Part shown: in pieces, positions 36,434-44,644 of the stretch
Position numbering within the stretch: position 1 is the first letter of the stretch
How the letters are laid out: the number at the start of each line of letters is the position of its first letter
Assembly: GCF_039655865.1 (NCBI RefSeq)
Contig: NZ_JBBYXL010000005.1
Coordinates: 1 to 64,000, forward strand
Direction: 5' to 3'
DNA: 64,000 nucleotides
DNA from: Prosthecobacter sp. SYSU 5D2
Lineage (GTDB): Bacteria; Verrucomicrobiota; Verrucomicrobiia; Verrucomicrobiales; Verrucomicrobiaceae
The notes under the pieces: generated by a model
What the model was told of the DNA's origin: nothing
What the model saw: only the letters and a program-made list of their open reading frames with translations
Databases searched by the model: none
Made by a program: the position numbers and the translations under genes

Positions 36434-38413
36434 TCACGCGGACATGACAGGCTGCATTTCGCGGGCGAATTCCTCCGGCGGCTGGGCGGTCTTGATGGCT
36501 TTGGCCATGGATTTGCTGAGGCCGTCCAATGAGTAGGGCTTGAGCATGATGTCCACGGGAGGATTGCGGCCTTCACCCAGGATGACGAATTCATCTGGAT
36601 CAATAACGAAGCCGCTGCAGACGACGACGGGAATGTCATTGCCGGCGGCGCGGAGCTGCTTGAAGGTGTCGCGACCGCTGAGCTTGGGCATGTAGATGTC
36701 CAGGAGCATGACGTCCACGCGCTCCTGGCCACCCAGAACGATATCGAGCGCTTGCTGGCCGTCCGCAGCTTCCAGCACACGATAACCAAGGAAGGTGAGC
36801 ATGTTGACGGCGATGGAGCGGACCGGTGCTTCATCATCCACGACGAGGATGTTGCCGCGTGAGCCTGCGGGGGAGGCAAGACTGGAAGAATCCGGCGTGA
36901 CTTCTTCCTCGACATTTTCCGGGTCGGCGGTGCGGGGGAGATAAATGCGGAATTCAGAGCCCTGACCTTCCACGCTGTCGAACTCGATCCAGCCGCCGTG
37001 CTCGCGGATGATGTCCTGGGCCATGCTGAGGCCGAGGCCGGTACCTTTGCCATTGTTCTTGGTGGTGAAGAATGGCTCGAAGACACGGCCGCGTGCGTCT
37101 TCGGGAATGCCATGGCCGTTGTCGCGGACGACAATCATGGCAAACTCGGCGGGGCCCATGTCGCCGGTAGGGCTGCGATGGGTGACGTTTTCGATGGCGA
37201 TTTCGATCACGCCTTTGTCCTCAGGAAGGGCATCGCGGGCATTGAGGCAGAGGTTCAGGATGACCTGCTCAAGCTGGGTGGCATCCGAGACCACAAAGGA
37301 GGCGTCCATGCCGGCGCGGATGCGGATGTCCACGCGGGGATCCACGCTGTGCTTGAGCAGGGTCTGGACTTCGGCCAGAAGCTTTTTGACATTGGTGACC
37401 TTGCGCAGGCTCTGGCCGGTGCTGCGGCGGGAGTAACCGAGGAGGCTTTTGACGAGATCTGCCGCGCGCTGGGTGGCCTGATTGGCACACTGCAGCTTTT
37501 CCCGGACCTCGCTCTGGTTGGAAGCGGGCTGGAGCTCGGCAAGGGTCAGATTGCCACGGATGGCGGTGAGCATGTTGTTAAAATCATGGGCGATGCCGCC
37601 GGCGAGCTGGCCGAGGTTGCCGAGTTTTTGTGACTCGCGAAGCTGGCGCTGAAGGCCCCGCATCTGGCTGCAATCCCGCACCATCCAGAGGCGGCCGATG
37701 ACTTCGCCCGTATCGGTCTGCATGGGAGTGGTGCGAATGCTGAAAGTACCGGCATTTTTATCCGCCAAGTCAGCTTCGACGATGTCCTGGAACTGGGGAT
37801 CCAGTCGGGCCTGCTCCAGCCAGAGGGTCATTTTATCGGCTTCTACAAAGCGGCTGGCGATGGCTTTAACGAGGGTGGTGACATCGCGCCCGCCGAGCTC
37901 TTCGAGCGGTTTGCCCAGAAATTCATCCAGCTTCGCGTTGGAGGCAATGATGCTGCCCTGGGAATCCACCACGGCGACACCCTCATCACTGGCGGCAAAG
38001 ATGCCTTGCAGGGCGGTGAAGGCCTCGCGCAGAAGGCGCTCCGCATTCATCAGCCGCTGGGCGGTCTGGCAGGCGTGGGTTTCGGCTGCATTGAGCGACT
38101 GGCGGTGCTTGGCAAAAAGCATGTTGATGTCACAACGCAGCTTCCAGAAATCAGTAGGCAGCCATTGGGCGATGTCTTTGGTGGGCGGTACGCCGCGCAG
38201 CACGGAGGCGGTGGCATTCATGACCGAGGCGACCGGCTTAAGCACCCAGCCGCTGAGGAGATAACCGGTAAGAACAACACCGCCGCCCAGCAGCACGCCC
38301 TCCAGTCCAAAAAACCACTCCAGAGAATGGCCCATGAGACGGACTGTACCGATGGCCGGCAGAAAGCCAAACAGGACGAACGGCAGCAGGAATCTAAGTC
38401 GGAGCGAGTTCAT
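36434..38413 (-). CDS. hybrid histidine kinase (2 TM, PAS, HisKA, HATPase, receiver), CckA-like layout
   Basis: The 659-residue protein has two TM helices near the N-terminus (about 7-23 and 34-54), a PAS domain at about 140-255 (FAASDEGVAVVDSQGSIIAS), HisKA with GQLAGGIAHDFNNMLTAIRG near 270, the N box ILNLCLNARDALPEDKG, G1 VVRDNGHGIPE, G2 GKGTGLGLSMAQDIIREHGG, and a C-terminal receiver (NILVVDDEAPVRS, MLLDIYMPKLSGRD, LKPYSLDGL). This is the layout of CckA and related NtrB-like hybrid kinases. Its ATG overlaps the stop of the upstream gene (ATGA at 38410-38413), pointing to a tight functional link. Confidence 0.93.
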   Translation of the reverse strand: MNSLRLRFLLPFVLFGFLPAIGTVRLMGHSLEWFFGLEGVLLGGGVVLTGYLLSGWVLKPVASVMNATASVLRGVPPTKDIAQWLPTDFWKLRCDINMLFAKHRQSLNAAETHACQTAQRLMNAERLLREAFTALQGIFAASDEGVAVVDSQGSIIASNAKLDEFLGKPLEELGGRDVTTLVKAIASRFVEADKMTLWLEQARLDPQFQDIVEADLADKNAGTFSIRTTPMQTDTGEVIGRLWMVRDCSQMRGLQRQLRESQKLGNLGQLAGGIAHDFNNMLTAIRGNLTLAELQPASNQSEVREKLQCANQATQRAADLVKSLLGYSRRSTGQSLRKVTNVKKLLAEVQTLLKHSVDPRVDIRIRAGMDASFVVSDATQLEQVILNLCLNARDALPEDKGVIEIAIENVTHRSPTGDMGPAEFAMIVVRDNGHGIPEDARGRVFEPFFTTKNNGKGTGLGLSMAQDIIREHGGWIEFDSVEGQGSEFRIYLPRTADPENVEEEVTPDSSSLASPAGSRGNILVVDDEAPVRSIAVNMLTFLGYRVLEAADGQQALDIVLGGQERVDVMLLDIYMPKLSGRDTFKQLRAAGNDIPVVVCSGFVIDPDEFVILGEGRNPPVDIMLKPYSLDGLSKSMAKAIKTAQPPEEFAREMQPVMSA

Positions 38414-41336: not shown

Positions 41337-41412
41337 CGTTTTCTGTTTTTGCGCACTCGGCGGATTTCATTGCAACTTTTGCAGCGGGCGGCGTCATGCA
41401 CAGGTTATACTG

Positions 41413-42186
41413 ATGCCGATGAAGACGCCTTTTGATGTTCCTGGAAAGCTGCCGCCGGGTGGCCAGGGGGCGGGGCATTTTCATACGACGCGGTGGACGC
41501 GGGTGGCACGGGCGAAGGAGGCTTCTCATGAAGGGCAGGATGCGCTGAGGGAGCTGTGCGGGGCTTATTATGCGCCGGTGCTGGCCTTTATACGCTGGCA
41601 GGGCCGGGATGCGGAGGCGGCGAGGGAGGTGGCGCATGAGTTCTTCGCTTACATGCTGAAAGGCGAGGCCATCCGCACGGCGGACCAGATCAAGGGCCGG
41701 TTCCGGTCTTATCTGCTGGGGGCGGTGAAGCATTTCCTCTCGCGCCAGCAGGAGGCGGCGCGCAGCCTGCGGCGGGGTGGGGGAATAGAGATGATCCCCA
41801 TCGCCGGGCCGGAGGTGGAGACGCAGCTGGCGGTACCGCTGGTGGATGAAAGTCAGCTTTCCCCGGACATGGCCTTTGACCGCCAGTGGGCGCTGACGGT
41901 GCTGGAGCGGGCGCTGCGGACCCTGGCACAAGAGTGGGAGAATGAGGGGAGGCAGGAGGTTTTTGAGAAACTACAGCCGTGGCTGACCGGAGAGTCCGGG
42001 CATGGTGACCAAAAGGCGCTGGCCGAGGAAGTGGGGATGAACCTGAACTCGCTGAAAACCCTGGTTCACCGGCTGAAGCAGCGCTTCCGCATACTGGTGC
42101 GGGAAGAGGTGGGCGCGACGCTGGAGGACGGGGCGGATGTGGAGGCGGAAATCCGTGTTCTTTTCAATGCCTTGCGAAGCCGTTAA
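41413..42186 (+). CDS. ECF-type sigma factor paired with a Ser/Thr kinase
   Basis: The start is taken at ATG 41413 (a second ATG follows at 41419). The 257-residue product has a sigma region 2-like part (YYAPVLAFIRWQGRDAEAAR, VAHEFFAYMLKGEAIRTADQ, KGRFRSYLLGAVKHFLSRQQ) and a region 4-like helix-turn-helix (DQKALAEEVGMNLNSLKTLV). It is a diverged sigma factor of the type found beside protein kinase genes in Planctomycetes and Verrucomicrobia. The kinase gene follows 43 bases after the stop; the kinase may phosphorylate and switch on the sigma factor, as reported for ECF-kinase pairs in other bacteria. Confidence 0.8.
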   Translation: MPMKTPFDVPGKLPPGGQGAGHFHTTRWTRVARAKEASHEGQDALRELCGAYYAPVLAFIRWQGRDAEAAREVAHEFFAYMLKGEAIRTADQIKGRFRSYLLGAVKHFLSRQQEAARSLRRGGGIEMIPIAGPEVETQLAVPLVDESQLSPDMAFDRQWALTVLERALRTLAQEWENEGRQEVFEKLQPWLTGESGHGDQKALAEEVGMNLNSLKTLVHRLKQRFRILVREEVGATLEDGADVEAEIRVLFNALRSR

Positions 42187-42229
42187 GATTTTTTGAAACT
42201 GTTTCCGGCGAATCCTTCAGGCATCCGGT

Positions 42230-44644
42230 ATGAGCGAATCTTTCTCTTCCTCCAAACCCTGTCCTAAATGCGGCGAGCTGATGACCGAAGAATCGGCGAC
42301 TGGCCTGTGCCCGGTGTGCCTGATGAGCCTGGCCATGAACTGGACGGCGCAAACCCAGCCGGTGGCACCACCGCTGAAAGTCCTGACGCCGGAAGAACTG
42401 GCTCCCCACTTCCCGCAACTGGAGGTGCTGGAGCTGATTGGCCGAGGTGGCATGGGGGTAGTCTATAAGGCGAAGCAGAAAAGCCTGAACCGCTACGTTG
42501 CGCTGAAACTGCTGGCTCCGGACTCGAAAAAGGACGGCAGCTTTGCCGGGCGTTTTGCCAAGGAGGCCCAGGCGCTGGCCAAGATGGACCATCCGAACAT
42601 TGTGACGGTGTATGACTTCGGCGAGAGCGGGGGTTTCTTTTATCTGCTGATGGAATATGTGGACGGGGTGAATCTGCGCCAGGCCATGCGTGCGGAAAAG
42701 TTCACGCCGGAGCAGGCGCTGGCCATCGTGCCGCCAGTCTGCGAGGCGCTGCAATATGCACATGAGCACGGCATTGTACACCGCGACATCAAGCCGGAGA
42801 ACCTGCTGATGAACAAACAGGGGCGGGTGAAAATCGCCGACTTCGGAATTGCCAAAATCATCGCCCACCCGGCTGCGGATGATGACAGCCGCTTTGCCCC
42901 AGGTGGAGCCACTGGCGACACGGTCAGTGCCGGCACACCGCAATACATGGCCCCGGAGCAACGGCAGGCGGATGCGAAGACCGACCACCGCTCAGACATC
43001 TATTCCTTGGGGGTGGTGCTCTATGAGCTGCTGACCGGAGAACTGCCAGGAGCGACGCTGCAGCCGCTTTCGAAGCGGATCCAGGTGGATGTGAAGCTGG
43101 ACGAGATCGTCCTGCGAGCGCTGGAGGTGAGGCCTGAGATGCGCTACCAAACGGCGGGCGAAATGCGGACGCAGCTGGCGGAGGTGAGGCTGGCGGGCGA
43201 TGGTGCTGCATCTGCATCCATTCCTGTTCAGAACAGGAAATCCAGGCGGCTTGCGTCTGTTTTGTGGGGCGCCGCTTCAGCGGCGGCTTTGGTCTTCATT
43301 TTGTTAGCCGCCCGCAAGCTGTTGCTGCCCTCACGGCCGCTTCCGCGGGTGGCGGCCGCGTCACAGATGACGGCGAAGACAGATTCCCCGCCCCTCCCGA
43401 CCGGCCCTCAGGAAGTGAAGCTGACTTATTTTAAAGAAGGAGGTTATGATAAAACACGCTCGTACCGGCCTAACACATTGCGCACGCTGCCGGATAAACC
43501 TGCGAACGTGACGCGGCTTCCTGAGGGGCTGACGGAGGCTTATTACGGCCAGCTTAAAATGGGACCGACCCAATCCCGCACGGCGATCACCGTGCTGATT
43601 GACGACATCCCGGAGAAAAGCCCGCGAATCTTTGTGGATACCAATGCCAATGGCGATCTGACTGATGATCCGCCCGCCCAGAATAACAATACCTCCCCGA
43701 CCGGCACTCTGACTTTCAGCGGACATGGATGGGTGGACCTGCCCTATGGCCCCATGACCCAAGGAGTAAGGCTGAACATGCGTACGATGGTCCGTCAGCC
43801 GTCCTACCCGCCACGTCCCAAAGCGGCACCCATGCTGGTCTATCATCTGGACTGCTTCAGTGAGGGGGAAGTGAGGCTGGCCGATGGACGGGCGGTGAAA
43901 GTGCTGCTCAAAGACGCCAACAGCGACGGCGACTTCACCACGGATCCGATGCTGTATGCGGACCTGGGCGACGGAAGCGGATATTCGGCGCGCAAAGGTG
44001 TGTTCAGGGCACTGGATGCAATCCAGATTTTGGGCAGCCAATACGAGATCAGGAACCTGTCTCCCACCGGGGAAAGCTTCACCTGGATCAAATCCAGTGC
44101 ACCGATTCTGGCGGAGCCTGAAGCGAAAGTCATCACCCCTCCCTTCGAGCTCAGCCTGGTTCAGGCAAAAGCGACCCCTGGTCCCGGCCTGCTGGCTGCG
44201 GGAATGGAGGCTCCCGCCTTTGACGCCCTTGCAGTGGACCGGCGGCCCATCAGATTCCCCTTTGCATACAAAGGGAAAGTGGTTCTGCTGGATTTTTGGT
44301 CCACGTGGTGCGGACCGTGCCTGAAGGAAATACCCTATCTGAAGGCGACCTATCAAAAACACCATCAGGAGGGGCTGGAGATCATCAGCATCAGCCTGGA
44401 TGAAAACGAATCTCTGCTCAAGCTCCTGCCTTTTATCACGGATCACCAGATGACCTGGCCGCAGATTTGTGAAGGGCGGAGTTTTAGCTCCTCGTTATGC
44501 CGGCTCTACAAAGTCAGCGGCATTCCTGCAGCCTATCTGGTTGATGGGGATACGGGGATCATCCTGGCGACCCAGCTGCGTGGCGAAACCATCCAGCAAG
44601 AGGTAGCGAAGGCATTGGCCCTCAAAAGAAATCAGCCCCAATAA
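42230..44644 (+). CDS. Ser/Thr protein kinase fused through a TM helix to a TlpA-like thioredoxin domain
   Basis: The 804-residue protein starts with a zinc ribbon (Cys11, Cys14, Cys27, Cys30), then a full Hanks-type kinase: GRGGMGVVYKA at 71-81, Lys93 in VALKLL, HRDIKPEN with Asp186, DFGIA with Asp204, and GTPQYMAPEQ. A TM helix follows at about 340-365. Outside come a region of about 250 residues (FVDTNANGDLTDD; LKDANSDGDFTTDP) with Asp-rich turns and a TlpA/ResA-type thioredoxin domain with WCGPC (Cys694, Cys697) and the cis-Pro site VSGIPAAYLVD. The outer domain could sense periplasmic redox state. Normally such kinases end in PASTA, WD40 or TPR domains; this fusion is unusual. Confidence 0.9.
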   Translation: MSESFSSSKPCPKCGELMTEESATGLCPVCLMSLAMNWTAQTQPVAPPLKVLTPEELAPHFPQLEVLELIGRGGMGVVYKAKQKSLNRYVALKLLAPDSKKDGSFAGRFAKEAQALAKMDHPNIVTVYDFGESGGFFYLLMEYVDGVNLRQAMRAEKFTPEQALAIVPPVCEALQYAHEHGIVHRDIKPENLLMNKQGRVKIADFGIAKIIAHPAADDDSRFAPGGATGDTVSAGTPQYMAPEQRQADAKTDHRSDIYSLGVVLYELLTGELPGATLQPLSKRIQVDVKLDEIVLRALEVRPEMRYQTAGEMRTQLAEVRLAGDGAASASIPVQNRKSRRLASVLWGAASAAALVFILLAARKLLLPSRPLPRVAAASQMTAKTDSPPLPTGPQEVKLTYFKEGGYDKTRSYRPNTLRTLPDKPANVTRLPEGLTEAYYGQLKMGPTQSRTAITVLIDDIPEKSPRIFVDTNANGDLTDDPPAQNNNTSPTGTLTFSGHGWVDLPYGPMTQGVRLNMRTMVRQPSYPPRPKAAPMLVYHLDCFSEGEVRLADGRAVKVLLKDANSDGDFTTDPMLYADLGDGSGYSARKGVFRALDAIQILGSQYEIRNLSPTGESFTWIKSSAPILAEPEAKVITPPFELSLVQAKATPGPGLLAAGMEAPAFDALAVDRRPIRFPFAYKGKVVLLDFWSTWCGPCLKEIPYLKATYQKHHQEGLEIISISLDENESLLKLLPFITDHQMTWPQICEGRSFSSSLCRLYKVSGIPAAYLVDGDTGIILATQLRGETIQQEVAKALALKRNQPQ

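Follow-up and report, generated by a model that had tools for sequence, protein, structure and literature searches.

A conserved sigma factor and receptor kinase pair in Prosthecobacter, with a TlpA-type outer end as a possible thiol-disulfide sensor

Does a receptor kinase that ends in a thioredoxin-like domain pass the thiol state of the cell envelope to the sigma factor encoded beside it? The question arises from a 64,000-nt stretch of Prosthecobacter sp. SYSU 5D2 (GCF_039655865.1, contig NZ_JBBYXL010000005.1; genome G000), hereafter the window, in which a gene for a divergent sigma factor is followed, after 43 bases, by a gene for a Ser/Thr kinase (Table 1). A first-pass annotation had proposed a one-protein redox sensor, in which a WCGPC domain outside the membrane controls the kinase and, through it, sigma-dependent transcription. 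We found that the architecture and the gene pairing are conserved, that the outer unit of the kinase was joined to kinases at least twice, and that the orthologous sigma genes share an upstream element. A one-receptor signalling pair, running from the thiol-disulfide state of the ectodomain to the kinase and then to the sigma factor, is the interpretation that we tentatively favour, at slightly below an even chance.

Both genes were recovered as open reading frames (ORFs) where they had been placed, and orthologous pairs were found in four other genomes; the pair is therefore more than a chance arrangement. An in-frame TTG upstream of the sigma ATG would give a 301-aa product, and the ATG fits the alignment of three of the four sigma orthologues, which begins at window residue 2-3. 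Using the outer part of the kinase, we searched 68 genomes of the family. The all-beta module and the TlpA domain were both matched in 14 of these, this genome counted. Six carry the unit on a kinase (G000, G014, G039, G013, G017 and G048), and the search thus yielded five further kinase-membrane helix-TlpA fusions. The orthologous sigma gene adjoins the fusion kinase in five of the 68 genomes, all of one genus, and the adjacent orthologues of the window's sigma factor are 63-68% identical to it. The pairs of G000 and G014 have the same upstream gene, topoisomerase-like by eye, and those of G013 and G017 have another; the contig of G039 was too short for its neighbourhood to be judged.

The kinase domain is of the Hanks Ser/Thr type, with its Gly loop (GGMG, residue 73), HRD (184), DFG (204) and APE (241) all intact. 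Matches to defence kinase models were dismissed, as they are explained by this domain. Only one hydrophobic stretch is present. Kinase identity, the single membrane pass and the numbering of Cys694 and Cys697 were thus all as first annotated. The N-terminal Cys4 motif occurs in all five orthologues and in 22 of 31 kinases examined, and is lacking in the G048 fusion.

The outer end was indeed a TlpA-like thioredoxin domain. In addition to AhpC-TSA, which scored above the Pfam cut-off, it matched ResA (4nmu) by sequence (E 4.6e-18) and 4grf by fold (E 3.3e-11), and it carries WCGPC and an invariant Ile-Pro, presumably at the cis-Pro place. The NCBIfam models for ResA (NF002854, 85.3 bits, cut-off 170) and TlpA (NF047696, 45.4 bits, cut-off 230) were not reached; on these scores the domain is a relative and not an equivalog. 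WCGPC is present in all five orthologues and WCPPC in the G048 fusion, such that WCxPC is intact in six of six fusions. Both WCGPC and GIPA were kept in the five orthologues although the outer parts of the other four share only 35-45% identity with that of the window. For G013 and G017, a single close pair compared by a simple method, the ratio of nonsynonymous to synonymous substitution rates (dN/dS) was 0.04 for the kinase, 0.09 for TlpA, 0.17 for the module and 0.58 for the linker and helix; the sigma factor gave 0.08. A third cysteine of the domain, Cys747 (44468-44470), lies in a WPQ-x-C stretch and occurs in 5/5 orthologues and 9/11 aligned sequences.

The five sigma-linked kinases formed one group in a 31-row tree (support 94/91) and, with six long rows dropped, in a 25-row tree (74/87, not starred). 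Forcing the G048 kinase into this clade was rejected by the approximately unbiased (AU) test (log-likelihood 121 lower, p-AU 5.8e-49); holding the outer parts of all six together was not rejected (p-AU 0.19). Based on the rejection of a single clade of six kinases, kinases acquired the outer unit on at least two occasions, whether through two captures or through transfer from one kinase to another. At the G048 locus (L043 7373-12581, minus strand), two kinase genes stand in tandem, and the downstream one is the separate TlpA fusion. In a kinase of G003 (L197, G003:C32 3949-7278, minus strand), the Asp-loop module comes after a 3-keto-disaccharide hydrolase domain, and TlpA is missing.

The module and TlpA also occur together without a kinase, in 8 of the 68 genomes (L044-L051). 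All eight of these stand-alone forms have a signal-peptide-like stretch, judged by eye and in many cases read from a Met inside the listed frame. They carry a further C-terminal region, which was trypsin-like by Pfam in both of the two scanned (L044 and L047). Their signal-peptide-like starts support an extracytoplasmic place for the outer unit, where the first-pass annotation had put the WCGPC end. The charges flanking the helix were uninformative: Lys plus Arg within 25 residues on either side were equal in three of the six fusions and differed by 1-2 in the others, and this line of support for topology was dropped.

Stand-alone forms were also found in named metagenome-assembled genome records of Planctomycetota, Spirochaetes and Armatimonadetes. 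A search of the phylum with the module alone matched 7 of 387 sampled genomes, and of these seven only G000 and G014 have the fusion. Among the matches listed (80 loci of the named-genome scan plus the 7 of the phylum search), none of 100 TlpA-bearing ORFs had a kinase match; the scan patterns match the thioredoxin motif and ordinary TlpA proteins dominate, so this count does not show the fusion to be absent elsewhere. The search of the 68 family genomes also brought up another family (L023-L032) of about 450-500 aa, in which TlpA lies close to the N-terminus and is followed by a long C-terminal part. A literature search over titles and the starts of abstracts, with partial coverage that allows no claim of absence, returned no paper on TlpA-kinase fusions.

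The sigma factor was first described as an extracytoplasmic function (ECF) type. Its own score against the curated ECF model TIGR02937 was 24.8 bits (E 1.4e-5), below the cut-off of 42.9, a Pfam scan of the protein gave no sigma domain, and no solved structure was matched at E 1. In an alignment with 28 relatives, the protein could be aligned along its length with those that score above the cut-off. Of six relatives scored, L083 (49.6), L086 (50.3) and L106 (52.2) pass, L082 (42.2) falls just under, and L094 (27.4) and L039 (20.9) lie well below. Kinship with ECF factors thus stood and membership by score did not, for which reason we label the protein 'ECF-like, by kinship'. At the DAED position of region 2.2, the window protein reads AARE and the other four orthologues read VARE, AGRE, AAQE and AAQE. 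Two paralogues of this genome (L082 and L083) read DAED.

Pairing with a kinase is the usual state of this sigma family. This genome has eight members, the window's included, and a kinase gene lies directly beside six of these (again counting the window's), two of the six being divergent; L084 and L087 had no adjacent kinase in the 8 kb fetched. In other genomes, an adjacent kinase was found at 17 of 18 sigma loci, L106 being the one without; these loci were mostly picked as best matches, not drawn at random. One of the kinases (L093) is broken by masked bases. The parts beyond the helix differ: in this genome the sigma-linked kinases carry 3-keto-disaccharide hydrolase, lamin tail, FGE-sulfatase and WD40 domains, as well as TPR below the cut-off. 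Nine further sigma-linked kinases (L090, L091, L094, L095, L098, L100, L101, L103 and L107) have several predicted membrane segments and no TlpA; in L090, L094 and L101, the three that were scanned, Pfam assigned no family to these membrane parts. The sigma-kinase pair is thus a common cassette with a conserved core and exchangeable outer domains, some of them enzyme-like.

The five orthologous sigma genes also share AACTTTT-N12-[AG][GT]CA, which begins 33-43 bases before the start codon and has a constant 12-base gap. We take this element to resemble ECF -35 elements with AAC. None of 5000 first-order Markov resamples of four of the regions (the near-duplicate G017/L042 was left out) shared a 7-mer, a count that is not a formal p-value because these are related genes, in which the motif had been noticed before resampling. 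No AACTTTT was found upstream of 18 sister sigma genes or of seven paralogues of this genome; L107 has a partial GCAACTT upstream. Presence before the five genes and absence before the 18 suggests autoregulation, and the element is a candidate autoregulatory promoter. As a means of finding a regulon, the pattern AACTTTT-N12-RKCAKG was dismissed: it gave 17 matches in the five genomes against 8 for the reversed control, and 4 against 4 in this genome. Of the 17, five belong to the sigma genes and a sixth (L224) repeats the G039 element on another contig, which leaves 11 against 8; L223 and L225 lie inside what is apparently the same coding frame of ~700 aa in two genomes.

Table 1. Features of the sigma factor and kinase locus. 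Coordinates are those of the window; residues are those of the kinase protein.
Feature	Residues	Coordinates	Strand	Basis or remark
AACTTTT-N12-GTCATG, candidate autoregulatory ECF promoter		41374..41398	+	upstream of sigma gene
Sigma gene, divergent ECF-like sigma factor, 257 aa		41413..42186 (stop included)	+	ATG start 41413
Kinase gene, receptor Ser/Thr kinase with module and TlpA outer end, 804 aa		42230..44644	+	
Cys4 zinc-ribbon-like N-terminal motif, CPKC-x12-CPVC	11-30	42260..42319	+	putative metal binding
Hanks-type kinase domain	65-275	42422..43054	+	Pfam Pkinase, E 3.1e-53
Single membrane helix	341-361	43250..43312	+	hydropathy
All-beta module with Asp/Asn loops	393-628	43406..44113	+	no curated family above cut-off
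Candidate metal-binding loop, DTNANGDLTDD	470-480	43637..43669	+	
Second Asp-rich loop, DANSDGDFTTD	562-572	43913..43945	+	
TlpA/ResA-type thioredoxin domain	about 657-775	44198..44554	+	Pfam AhpC-TSA 658-775, E 5.1e-15
WCGPC redox motif	693-697	44306..44320	+	

The Asp-rich module before TlpA had been left without a family, and no Pfam family was found for it here either. Modelled alone with AlphaFold2, it was all-beta (predicted local distance difference test, pLDDT, 86.7; predicted template-modelling score, pTM, 0.81); the whole outer part modelled alone was moderate (pLDDT 77.3, pTM 0.53). Nothing in the PDB matched the module at E 1e-3. The best VIA-align hit, an avidin permutant (Z 4.8, root-mean-square deviation 3.8 over 84 residues), was too weak to name the fold. 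Similarly, Pfam GEVED was below its cut-off in four of six proteins scanned and is not claimed; its position was near the Asp loop in L039, L044 and L047 and elsewhere in the module in L117. In the first Asp loop, D470, N472, G475, D476 and D480 are invariant in 11/11 family sequences, and D470 alone remains so in a wider 8-row set. In the second, D562, G567 and F569 are invariant in 11/11, and none of the three in the wider set. Metal binding by the first loop is a guess, since its invariance falls to one position in the wider set.

In its fold and its WCxPC active site, the outer end of the window kinase resembles ResA, TlpA and StoA, which are small anchored or secreted proteins and not kinase ectodomains. 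The closest known plan for the whole protein is that of PknE (Rv1743) of Mycobacterium tuberculosis, which has an inner Hanks kinase, one helix and an outer thioredoxin fold with CxxC (PMC3792642, PMC1262709). The window kinase has the same order of kinase, single helix, thioredoxin fold and CxxC, a likeness of architecture for which the topology is our inference. The outer domain of PknE is DsbA-like with CPPC, whereas that of the window is TlpA/ResA-like with WCGPC, its best matches by sequence and fold being of ResA/TlpA type. The window kinase also differs in having an all-beta module before TlpA and in adjoining a sigma gene. For the sigma side, the receptor kinase PknS of Xanthomonas citri phosphorylates its cognate sigma factor, EcfK, and needs its outer domain for function (PMC13147305). 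ECF43 sigma factors lack DAED, carry a Thr in the segment and depend on phosphorylation (PMC8999054). The ECF43 pairs PknS/EcfK and, from Vibrio parahaemolyticus, PknT/EcfP thus resemble the window pair in joining a receptor kinase to a sigma factor without DAED (PMC8999054, PMC13147305); the outer part of PknS, in contrast, consists of TPR repeats (PMC13147305). By gene arrangement, the window pair is also like the groups associated with Ser/Thr kinases, ECF59, ECF61, ECF62, ECF217 (with Planctomycetes examples) and ECF283 (PMC8999054), in which the sigma gene lies beside the kinase gene. No anti-sigma gene was recognised by eye among the neighbours; no dedicated search was made. Both features, a kinase that bears an outer thioredoxin fold (PknE) and a sigma factor that a neighbouring kinase phosphorylates (EcfK), are therefore already known. 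The present analysis adds that the cassette is conserved, that the outer unit was joined to kinases repeatedly and has stand-alone relatives, and that the orthologous sigma genes share an upstream element.

Under the signalling reading, the kinase domain would lie inside the cell and a captured secreted unit of module and TlpA-type domain outside. By analogy with PknS/EcfK and PknT/EcfP, the sigma factor would probably have little or no activity before its phosphorylation by the adjacent kinase. The loss of DAED from region 2.2, a state tied in ECF43 to phosphorylation (PMC8999054), supports this step, and coupling of kinase to sigma factor is likely. The most likely input would be thiol-disulfide exchange between Cys694/Cys697 and a partner or reductant in the periplasm, which would alter the state or pairing of the ectodomain and thereby the activity of the kinase; the sigma factor would then probably drive its own operon from the shared element. 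Redox input is plausible, and favoured by the intact WCGPC, the low TlpA dN/dS of the one pair, and the presence of a DsbD gene (one DsbD_TM gene over the cut-off, with a second match below). Several observations weigh against this reading. The degenerate DAED segment holds no Ser or Thr in any of the five orthologues and thus lacks the Thr that ECF43 factors carry there. The pattern matches in the five genomes revealed no common promoter target, neither DsbB nor VKOR was found in this genome, and the 16 kb fetched around the G048 fusion yielded no sigma match. Finally, the active site is conserved equally in the stand-alone relatives, which may mean that it is kept for enzyme activity or fold and not for sensing.

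A one-protein redox sensor is thus one of several readings, and the input need not be the active site, since other sigma-linked kinases of this genome carry enzyme-like outer domains such as 3-keto-disaccharide hydrolase and FGE-sulfatase. It is rather unlikely, yet a serious contender, that the outer end is a receptor for a ligand or partner: a peptide, a protein or some other ligand would bind to the TlpA fold and to the module, which may hold a metal, and the cysteines would be retained through inheritance or for the sake of the fold, not as the input. The unrelated parts on the other sigma-linked kinases, as if recognition domains had been swapped, the module without TlpA on the G003 kinase and the first Asp/Asn loop, invariant in 11/11, all fit such a receptor; WCxPC, intact in six of six fusions, and the low TlpA dN/dS of the one pair fit an active thiol site better. 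Judging by its relatives, the outer end might instead be chiefly a tethered enzyme, a working thiol reductase fed by DsbD, whose activity the kinase and sigma factor set or report. The stand-alone forms do resemble whole secreted redox proteins, with a trypsin-like domain in both of those scanned, and DsbD_TM is encoded in the genome. A receptor would nonetheless seem a poor way of supplying an enzyme, and the sigma-kinase cassette points to signalling; we rate this explanation unlikely. Least probable, and by our estimate very unlikely, is that the sigma factor is a neighbour, not a target, and that the main substrates of the kinase lie elsewhere. It is usual for a Hanks kinase to have more than one substrate, indeed several (PMC13147305), and the G048 fusion, with no sigma match in the 16 kb fetched, and the unpaired sigma genes (two of eight here, one of 18 elsewhere) would agree with this; set against them are the recurrent adjacency, at six of eight loci here and 17 of the 18 chosen elsewhere, and the survival of the pair in at least two genomic contexts.

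Outside the pair, the minus-strand gene at 36434-38413 looks, by eye, as if it encodes a hybrid histidine kinase that includes a receiver domain; in G014 (L039), a gene whose start is very similar lies close to the pair.

Should the thiol site prove to be the input, a single protein would link the redox state of the envelope directly to a sigma factor, and the route would need fewer parts than those that run through two-component systems or anti-sigma factors. More broadly, it is possible, if doubtful, that the cassette gains new senses by capturing secreted enzyme units, and that the module and TlpA turn periplasmic thiol state into self-amplifying sigma-dependent transcription. The cassette pattern would help to interpret the many kinases of this group that are still uncharacterised, and a reporter for the activity of the sigma factor could readily be built on the conserved upstream element.

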